Positions 28,972 to 31,584 of a stretch of 64,000 nt of DNA are shown piece after piece. The DNA is from Haloprofundus salinisoli. GTDB lineage: Archaea > Halobacteriota > Halobacteria > Halobacteriales > Haloferacaceae. The notes below the pieces were generated by a model, which searched no databases, had not been told where the DNA came from, and saw only the letters and a program-made list of their open reading frames with translations. The position numbers were made by a program, and so were the translations under genes. The DNA is taken from positions 1,860,001 through 1,924,000 of the forward strand of contig NZ_CP083663.1 of NCBI RefSeq assembly GCF_020097815.1, read 5' to 3'. Positions within the stretch are counted from its first letter, which is position 1. Each line of letters begins with the position of its first letter.

Positions 28972-30831
28972 GTGACCGACGCAAACACGTCATTTCAGGC
29001 TCTCGCTGACCAGGTCAAACGCCCGATACAGCGGGTGTTCGACGAGTACGGCAGACCGGAGTTGCGGTGGCTGACCCTCGGCGTCCTGACGAGTTTCCTC
29101 TCCCGCGCGGCGAACCTCGTCCCGCCCCTCCTCCTCGGCGTCACGCTGAACGCCGTCGAGAGCGGTCCCGGCGCGTACAGTCTCCCGCTCGTCCCCGACG
29201 CGTGGCTTCCCTCGACCGTACCTGAGCAACTGACGCTCTCGATAACGCTCATCGCCGCTTCGTTCGTCGTCGCCGCGGTGGCCTCGTGGGGGCGGACGGT
29301 GACGCTGAACCTGTTCGCGCACCGCATCGAACATTTCCTCCGTATCGACACCTACGAGCGGATGCAATCGCTCGACATGGCTTTCTTCGACGACAAACAG
29401 ACCGGCGAGATAATGTCGGTGCTGAACAACGACGTGAACAACCTGGAGGTGTTCTTCGACAACGCGCTGGAGAGCACTATCCGCCTCGTCGTGATGGTCG
29501 TCGGAATCGCGGCCGTGCTGTTCTACCTCAACTGGCAACTCGCCGTCGTCACGCTCGTGTTCGTCCCGCTGCTCGCGGGCTTCACCTACTGGTTCATGAC
29601 TCGCGTCGAACCCGTCTACGCCGCCGTCCGGTCGAGCATCGGCGGCCTCAACACGCGGTTGGAGAACAACCTCTCGGGCATCGACCTCATCAAGACGACG
29701 GCGACCGAGCGCTACGAGGCCGAACGCGTCCGCGGCGCCTCTCAGGAGTACTTCGACCAGATCATGACGGTCATCAAACTCTCGGGCATCTACCAGCCGG
29801 GGATGCAGTTCATCGGCGGGATGACGTTTCTGACGACGTTCGCCGTCGGCGGCTACTGGCTAATCGTCGGCACGCCGCCGCTTTTGACCGGTGCGCTGCA
29901 GGTCGGGACGTTCGTCACGTTCGTCACGCTCGCTCGGGAGTTGGTCGCCCCCGTCAGCGAATCGGGCCGCATCGTCGAGTGGTACGAGAACGCGCTCGCG
30001 TCGACGCGGCGGATCTACGCGCTCCGCGACATGCCCGCGAGCATCGACGACCCGGACGACCCCGTTTCGCTCGACGACGTCTCGGGCCGCGTCGAGTACG
30101 ACTCGGTCTCGTTTTCGTACAGCGACGACGAACAGGTGCTCTCGGACGTGAGCTTCGCCGTCGAACCGGGTGAGACGCTGGCGCTCGTGGGGCCGACGGG
30201 GGCCGGGAAATCGACGATTCTGAAACTGCTTCCCCGGCTGTACGATGTCGACGACGGCTCCGTTCGCGTCGACGGCGTCGACGTGCGCGACGCCTCGCTC
30301 TCGGAGTTGCGCGGCGCGGTCGGCTACGTCGGCCAGGAGACGTTCCTCTTCGACGGCACCGTCGCCGAGAACCTCCGGTACGGGGCGTTCGACGCGACAG
30401 AGGAGGAGATGGTCGAGGCCGCGAAAATTGCGGAGGCTCACGAGTTCATCGAGGAGCTTCCGGAGGGGTACGACACGCGAATCGGCGAACGGGGCGTGAA
30501 ACTCTCCGGCGGTCAACGTCAACGGCTCTCCATCGCGCGGACGGCCTTGGCGGACGCGCCGATTCTCATCCTCGACGAAGCGACGTCGGCGGTCGACACC
30601 GAGACCGAACGCCGCATCCAGCGCGGGCTGGAGCGACTCACCGAGGACCGGACGACGCTCGTCATCGCCCACCGCCTCTCGACGGTGACGAACGCCGACG
30701 AGATTCTCGTGCTCGACGACGGCCGGATCGAAGAGCGCGGGTCTCACAGTGAACTCTACGCCACCGACGGCGAGTACGCCTCGCTGTGGGCCGCACAGGC
30801 GGCGGTCTCGATGGGGTCACGAGACGACTAA
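28972..30831 (+). CDS. ABC exporter, fused membrane and ATPase domains
   Basis: A 619-residue type IV ABC half-transporter. Six hydrophobic helices (about 35-330) are followed by the nucleotide-binding domain with Walker A GPTGAGKS (about 407-414), signature LSGGQRQR (about 510) and Walker B ILILDEATSA (about 530). Two copies would form an exporter of lipid, peptide or drug; the substrate is unknown. It starts with GTG at 28972. It is alone on its strand, with the candidate RNA gene downstream. Confidence 0.92.
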   Translation: MTDANTSFQALADQVKRPIQRVFDEYGRPELRWLTLGVLTSFLSRAANLVPPLLLGVTLNAVESGPGAYSLPLVPDAWLPSTVPEQLTLSITLIAASFVVAAVASWGRTVTLNLFAHRIEHFLRIDTYERMQSLDMAFFDDKQTGEIMSVLNNDVNNLEVFFDNALESTIRLVVMVVGIAAVLFYLNWQLAVVTLVFVPLLAGFTYWFMTRVEPVYAAVRSSIGGLNTRLENNLSGIDLIKTTATERYEAERVRGASQEYFDQIMTVIKLSGIYQPGMQFIGGMTFLTTFAVGGYWLIVGTPPLLTGALQVGTFVTFVTLARELVAPVSESGRIVEWYENALASTRRIYALRDMPASIDDPDDPVSLDDVSGRVEYDSVSFSYSDDEQVLSDVSFAVEPGETLALVGPTGAGKSTILKLLPRLYDVDDGSVRVDGVDVRDASLSELRGAVGYVGQETFLFDGTVAENLRYGAFDATEEEMVEAAKIAEAHEFIEELPEGYDTRIGERGVKLSGGQRQRLSIARTALADAPILILDEATSAVDTETERRIQRGLERLTEDRTTLVIAHRLSTVTNADEILVLDDGRIEERGSHSELYATDGEYASLWAAQAAVSMGSRDD

Positions 30832-30936
30832 ACCCTACGGCCTCAGCGCAAACGACACCGCGTACACGGCCGCGCCTCGACGACTCTCTAACTGACCAAC
30901 CAGTAATGCCCCCCGCCGTCTGCCGTCTGCGCCACG

Positions 30937-30943
30937 CTTAAGT
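30937..30943 (+). promoter_or_regulatory. TATA box of the candidate structured RNA
   Basis: CTTAAGT is centred at about 30940. The expected transcription start 25-27 nt downstream falls at 30965-30968, exactly where the first hairpin begins. Confidence 0.45.
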
Positions 30944-30965
30944 AGACGGGGAGTCTGTGTTCAGG

Positions 30966-31075
30966 TGACGCTTCGCTTTGGAGGGCCGAAGCGTCAGCGG
31001 GGACCAATTCAGGGCGGCAAACGCTGTACCCTTGCTTTTCTCACGGGTGCGGCGTTTACCCCTTTCGCTGAAACA
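30966..31075 (+). ncRNA. Candidate structured non-coding RNA with two strong hairpins
   Basis: The 350-base gap after the ABC exporter has no good open frame. Hairpin 1 pairs TGACGCTTCG (30966-30975) perfectly with CGAAGCGTCA (30987-30996) around an 11-nt loop. Hairpin 2 pairs AAACGCTGTACCC (31019-31031) with GGGTGCGGCGTTT (31045-31057), 13 pairs including two G-U wobbles, around a 13-nt loop. The wobbles are allowed in RNA made from the plus strand. A TATA box sits 25 nt before hairpin 1. I do not recognise SRP RNA, RNase P RNA or a clear C/D or H/ACA guide. The 3' end is arbitrary. It could instead be a 3'-UTR structure of the exporter or of the gene on the other strand. Confidence 0.45.
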
Positions 31076-31181
31076 ACGACCGACGAGCGATAGCCGGCGC
31101 TCGAGACGTACACGCGCTCGGACAATCAGTACTTCACGCTACGCTTTCGGCAGTTTGCGCGACCACCGCAGAATTCGACCG

Positions 31182-31376
31182 TTACGACTCCGTCGGCGGA
31201 TTCCGAGCGAGCGCCTCGAACATCGCCGCCGACGCGACGGCCGTGCCGGCGCCGCCGGCCAGAGAGAGCGGAACGACCGTCAGCGCTCCGAGCGCCCCGC
31301 CGCCGAAGAGCGCGATACCCATGACGAACAGTATCAGGTCGAACCGCGACGGGATCTTCGAAGTGAGGTCGCTCAT
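31182..31376 (-). CDS. Small two-helix membrane protein
   Basis: A 64-residue protein with helices at about 13-34 and 37-57 and a basic N-terminus (KIPSRFD). No family is recognised; similar tiny membrane proteins are common in haloarchaea. The ATG at 31376 has AT-rich promoter-like sequence upstream (TCTAATTA). It lies between the candidate RNA and tRNA-Leu, on the tRNA strand. Confidence 0.6.
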   Translation of the reverse strand: MSDLTSKIPSRFDLILFVMGIALFGGGALGALTVVPLSLAGGAGTAVASAAMFEALARNPPTES

Positions 31377-31499: not shown

Positions 31500-31584
31500 T
31501 GCGAGGGACGAGATTTGAACTCGCGAATCCCTACGGAAGCGGGTCTTAAGCCCGCCGCTTTTGGCCTAGCTCAGCCACCCTCGC
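31500..31584 (-). tRNA. tRNA-Leu (anticodon UAA)
   Basis: On the minus strand the sequence folds as a class II tRNA. The acceptor stem is GCGAGGG (5') with CCCTCGC (3') and discriminator A, the anticodon loop is CTTAAGA giving UAA, there is a long variable arm, and the T-loop segment is GTTCAAATC. CCA is not encoded. No intron is seen. A run of T (31494-31497 on the minus strand) follows the 3' end and probably ends transcription. Confidence 0.95.

Follow-up and report, generated by a model that had tools for sequence, protein, structure and literature searches.

A near-universal small non-coding RNA gene with its own promoter in Halobacteria

Positions 30965-31066 (plus strand) of the window, by which we mean the entire 64,000-nucleotide stretch of Haloprofundus salinisoli DNA analyzed here, almost certainly contain a real gene for a small non-coding RNA of ~100 nt that represents one copy of an RNA family found in nearly all haloarchaea. 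We accept this gene as real because it is conserved, homologs being found in all genomes of the same taxonomic family (148/148; blastn, query 30925-31100) and in 240/242 sampled genomes of the class, and not because of the strength of its stems. A regulatory role for the RNA is plausible.

Results

The original prediction described two unusually strong stems in a gene-free gap of 350 bases. The gap is present and extends over 350 nt, from the end of an ABC-transporter ORF at 30831 to an ORF on the minus strand (31182-31376); past it lie a tRNA-Leu(TAA) gene (31500-31584, minus strand) and then a ferredoxin-like gene. The minus-strand ORF, which adjoins the RNA gene, is hydrophobic, 64 aa long and without a Pfam match. 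Both stems were also located. Stem 1 consists of 10 perfect pairs (30966-30975 with 30987-30996) with 11 nt between the arms and builds a 5' hairpin (30966-30996) with the apical region CTTTGGAGGGC (30976-30986), in which GGA is exposed in most predicted folds. The hairpin is followed by the linker GCGGGGACCAATTC (30997-31010), of which the first 8 letters, GCGGGGAC, are near-invariant in alignments across the class. Stem 2 comprises 13 pairs including two G-U pairs (31019-31031 with 31045-31057) and is the core of a terminator-like 3' hairpin (31011-31064) with a loop at 31032-31044. On the opposite strand the G-U pairs become C-A, and this stem thus forms in plus-strand RNA only, as had been proposed. 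The hairpin exceeds the earlier description in that AGGG (31011) pairs into CCCCTT (31059-31064) at its base. The tract CCCCTTT (31059-31065) is the likely 3' end or termination site.

That the RNA has a promoter of its own is borne out by an alignment of 107 copies. In the window, a BRE-like CG(R)YA element stands upstream of a TTTAAG-type TATA box (CTTAAGT, 30937-30943), with the two elements covering 30930-30943 on the plus strand. From the T of TTAA (30938) to the first paired base the distance is 28 nt, which confirms the TATA-to-stem geometry originally suggested. With the first T of stem 1 as reference, the TATA T is at -28 in all but at most one of the 107 copies. No variation is seen at two of the four TATA letters, with T(-28) and T(-27) at 100% and A(-26) at 99%, and the BRE-like CG(R)YA upstream of TATA in the collected copies is marked by C(-36), G(-35) and A(-32) at 93%, 94% and 97%, respectively. 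From the promoter spacing we predict a 5' end at 30965/30966, i.e. the G or T before GACGCTTCG, and from the T-rich tail a 3' end near CCCCTTT.

Over a shared core of about 55-60 nt, the best blastn matches are 95-100% identical, and the host genome holds a second copy of the RNA. The class-wide count was obtained with a covariance model built from 22 copies and run on sampled Halobacteria, and the genomes in which it finds the RNA represent 72/74 genera. Copy number is typically one outside the family of the window and about two inside it; in four genomes (G245, G247, G043 and G104) at least three copies each are present, some having an extended 3' hairpin that is fused to the linker. G159 and G285 are the only class genomes among the 242 without the RNA, the chance-level matches there lacking the core. 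These two genomes have sizes of about 1.9 and 2.1 Mb. A second covariance model, representing the core only and applied to 393 phylum genomes, matches 80 of the sampled Halobacteria and gave no convincing match outside Halobacteria. Weak matches outside the class in G446 and G547 (E 0.003-0.006, ~310 genomes) were read by eye, found to lack the core and discarded. A viral or phage origin was rejected on the basis that viral contigs and phage records gave no match.

Although the two stems exist, their proposed unusual strength did not hold up. Perfect 10-bp stems with loops of <=15 nt occur 8 times in the window versus 2-11 times in Markov controls, positions with 13 pairs including G-U occur 11 times versus 0-6 times, and the fold has a z-score of just about -1.75. 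Stem strength, which is not beyond chance for a G+C-rich window, was dropped as evidence.

The relatives were searched for compensatory changes, whose absence would, according to the original prediction, have refuted it; such changes were found and the proposal of a structured RNA stands. Hairpin 2 covaries strongly. Its 103 different tails fold with a mean of -29.3 kcal/mol versus -15.9 kcal/mol for mononucleotide shuffles, and its arms, of which there are 76 distinct 5' and 73 distinct 3' sequences, pair with an average of -23.2 kcal/mol within the same copy versus -10.7 kcal/mol when swapped between copies. In ordinary copies of stem 1, 7/10 pairs are invariant and no pair covaries. In divergent copies, stem 1 pairs are altered and the loop and linker are unchanged. 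These changes are UA to CG in three cases and CG to UA in one, so that two pairs contribute four cells. The observed number of compensatory cells is reached in 0/500 shuffles, and sliding the register yields 0 or 1. As they represent few events in related mobile copies, they lend support to stem 1 rather than proof. Since compensation in stem 1 leaves the loop and linker unchanged, the unpaired motifs are indicated as constrained sites. Two of the divergent copies (L138 and L139) are on the Halorubrum lacusprofundi plasmid pHLAC01; together with three others (L140, L141 and L157), they form a group that is altered in stem pairs and 3' parts and is found on a plasmid or in more than one genome. 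These copies may represent decoys or versions of the RNA carried by mobile elements.

The copy set was gathered with a pattern requiring a GGAGGGC...CGGGGAC core, while the blastn and covariance-model searches behind it did not require this core. Invariance of the core letters in the 104-copy set is therefore partly a consequence of the collection pattern, and the presence of the UGGAGGG tip and the GCGGGGAC linker in all collected copies is a count that is not independent of it. The 5' hairpin of the family is TGACGCTTCG / CGAAGCGTCA with an apical region ending in TGGAGGGC; 3' of this hairpin comes GCGGGGAC(C), followed by AATTCAGGGCGGC in most copies. The 5' hairpin and the GCGGGGAC(C) linker are almost letter-for-letter fixed across copies. 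The sequence of the 3' hairpin varies freely among the copies compared and its pairing is kept, and a T/pyrimidine tract lies 3' of it in 101/104 copies. The spacing between stem arms differs by 1-3 nt among copies.

The copies occupy two distinct genomic settings. The copy in the window (copy A) is near a ferredoxin gene, as it is in several other genera of the family, and is an extra copy typical of this family. The class-wide copy lies between a DUF7117 gene (upstream) and a gene for a PadR regulator (downstream), and a small ORF ending in RALGWVLEEEHI lies upstream of it. In many genera this ORF is ~48 aa, without a Pfam match, and 115-270 nt upstream of the RNA. At the class-wide copy of the host (L032/L130), the genus of the window has two flanking PadR-family genes and an Amphi-Trp gene on the opposite strand. 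The existence of two settings implies that the RNA is not tied to a single downstream gene.

In searches with 4227 Rfam models (including SRP, RNase P, sot RNAs and riboswitches), none matched the locus at the gathering threshold, the only match being the tRNA-Leu at 31500-31584, and a permissive search gave one chance match on the minus strand, to s2m (18.5 bits versus a threshold of 50). These Rfam and tRNA searches agree with the initial view that this is not an SRP RNA, RNase P RNA or tRNA. The further suggestion of an unusual guide RNA, in the sense of a modification guide, is not supported. For an H/ACA guide, stem 1 is a continuous 10-bp helix without an internal pocket, and ACA follows it in 1/104 copies; for a C/D guide, defined by C box RUGAUGA and D box CUGA, the C box is found in 0/104 copies and CTGA within the first 60 nt in 8/104.

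Discussion

We suggest, at about even probability and reasoning from sequence features, that this is a stand-alone trans-acting RNA whose two fixed, unpaired G-rich motifs bind a single conserved partner, the RNA serving as sponge or scaffold. In this model, (i) an independent non-coding transcript of ~100 nt would be made from its own promoter, as the fixed promoter suggests, (ii) the ultraconserved 5' half would present a hairpin with a TGGA-type tip together with the unpaired GCGGGGACC, (iii) the 3' hairpin, variable in sequence and conserved in structure, would by its look serve as a terminator or stabilizer, (iv) the two motifs would act in trans by binding the same conserved partner, most likely an RNA-binding protein, and (v) the RNA would act in post-transcriptional control by a CsrB/RsmZ-like display of GGA. 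In favor of this model, the RNA is near-universal in Halobacteria and absent elsewhere in the phylum, promoter spacing is fixed, hairpin 2 covaries, stem 1 compensation spares the loop and linker, the RNA does not code for a protein and occurs in two genomic settings, an Lsm protein is encoded, and sRNAhts10 of H. volcanii, located at the matching place, is a sequenced transcript with a deletion phenotype.

In CsrB/RsmZ, GGA is displayed in hairpin tips and single-stranded linkers. The RNA described here similarly has GGA in a hairpin tip and a single-stranded linker; however, it has only two motifs per RNA and no sequence match in Rfam. Moreover, CsrA (PF02599) was found in 0/78 haloarchaeal genomes, with control genomes positive, and the RNA may thus work like a CsrB/RsmZ sponge but cannot be one.

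Pairing with other RNAs bears on the nature of the partner. The best duplexes of the loop and linker with 16S and 23S rRNA are no better than those of shuffled sequences; a 10-letter match to an rRNA-operon locus was set aside, being outside 23S. Among the matches listed, the exact linker complement TGGTCCCCGCTG is at copies of the RNA gene except for two sites in one genome (G022), and near-matches to it in 12 genomes are no commoner than in a reversed-pattern control. Since neither rRNA complementarity nor an overrepresentation of linker complements was found, the options left are a protein partner or short seeds. Short seeds would be used if the RNA were an antisense-type sRNA that pairs by its GGAGGG tip and/or GCGGGGACC linker to C-rich mRNA stretches with the aid of Lsm and alters translation or stability. 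We regard this possibility as less probable than the model above: Fixed unpaired G-rich motifs beside structured parts are the usual sRNA layout, the genome encodes an Lsm protein, and Lsm of H. volcanii co-purifies small RNAs (PMC3432209), but long sites complementary to the linker are not in excess over the control and changing mRNA targets are not expected to fix ~40 letters, helix included, throughout the class. The fixed helix letters also speak against the trans-acting model that we favor, as a partner binding the loop alone does not explain them. They would be accounted for if the RNA were part of a ribonucleoprotein, and a housekeeping RNA of a new functional kind, forming part of a new ribonucleoprotein that is essential or near-essential throughout Halobacteria, is conceivable but rather unlikely.

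An association with the ribosome, in which the loop GGAGG would dock on the anti-Shine-Dalgarno CCUCC at the 16S rRNA terminus, or the RNA would bind elsewhere on the ribosome, to tune translation, appears unlikely. The host has the 16S 3' end to which GGAGG is complementary, and sRNA_61 of H. volcanii, a candidate identity only, is a comparable RNA: It is a very abundant chromosomal RNA of 111 nt with high ribosome occupancy, no stop codon within the RNA and no detectable protein (PMC12482152), and the Haloferax copies similarly are without a stop in at least one frame. Nevertheless, only 5 pairs can form with 16S and, as described above, rRNA pairing does not exceed that of shuffled controls. 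It is improbable to a much higher degree that the inverted repeat functions at the DNA level as an operator, or as the leader or attenuator of a neighboring gene. The class-wide copy does lie 0.2-0.8 kb upstream of the PadR gene on the same strand, but a gene on the opposite strand intervenes in several genomes, no PadR gene is near the window copy, arm spacing varies by 1-3 nt, G-U pairs are tolerated and the RNA has its own promoter and a terminator-like 3' end. Finally, a leaderless small protein gene starting from GTG at 30965 is barely credible: The transcript would start at this GTG, a valid leaderless start that is overlapped by a 136-aa frame from the ORF tool, but one-letter loop changes shift the frame (61 copies have GGAGGG in frame 0 and 43 have it in frame 2), the first base and T of the would-be start vary so that it is CTG, CCG or TCG in some copies, and hairpin 2 is free to change. 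The coding reading is mainly refuted by this frame test on the collected copies, 99/104 of which have stops in one of three frames.

The locus was initially considered the best candidate in the window for something undescribed, which appears to hold for the family but probably not for each of its members. In Haloferax (H. sulfurifontis and H. larsenii), copy A has a 165-aa ORF on one side and a large opposite-strand ORF on the other, and 5' of it are genes that we name from sequence reading as oadhA-like, lrp, trkA and a 78-aa lrp gene. The large ORF is read as a putative chemotaxis transducer, which we take to be HVO_2214. In H. volcanii, HVO_2209 is oadhA4 (PMC8305020), HVO_2212 is 78 aa (PMC12850539), and sRNAhts10 (HVO_2213s) is a forward-strand RNA of 161 nt that is conserved in 18 other haloarchaea and whose deletion causes mild growth differences on acetate and at low salt (PMC3956466); it was seen by RNA sequencing according to Heyer 2012 as cited in PMC3956466. 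Copy A of Haloferax is likewise between the positions of HVO_2213 and HVO_2214, downstream of HVO_2209/HVO_2212 and on the forward strand, although sRNAhts10 was catalogued as a single sRNA longer than the ~100 nt predicted here. Based on gene order and strand, the Haloferax ortholog of the window copy is probably sRNAhts10, and because it is exactly at the reported place, its transcription has very probably already been seen.

sRNA conservation in haloarchaea is described as very low, with 22/27 of those tested confined to H. volcanii (PMC3956466). In about 99% of the haloarchaeal genomes sampled, the RNA described here is kept almost unchanged to the letter, and it has no Rfam family; this makes it a strong candidate for a core role in an archaeal model amenable to genetics. 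The alignment shows which letters of the RNA merit mutation, and an sRNAhts10 deletion strain exists, in which a second RNA copy would mask the effect of the deletion.

Other catalogued transcripts invite comparison. Ribosome-associated ncRNAs of H. volcanii such as rancRNA_s194 (PMC6104027) are likewise haloarchaeal, intergenic and about 100 nt, but rancRNA_s194 occurs only in H. volcanii (PMC3956466 Table 5) whereas the RNA here is class-wide. The comparative-genomics prediction sRNAH225.2R (HVO_1727s2) has a similar length of 96 nt and is conserved in 19 haloarchaea (PMC3956466); that it is one of our copies is only a possibility, and H225.2R, HVO_2908s and sRNA_61 are candidates for the class-wide copy. 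A text search of papers for the core string gave none, and in the open papers searched we found no description of the paralogs, the promoter geometry, the covarying structure or the range across the class. These four features may therefore be new, while one member of the family was probably catalogued as sRNAhts10.
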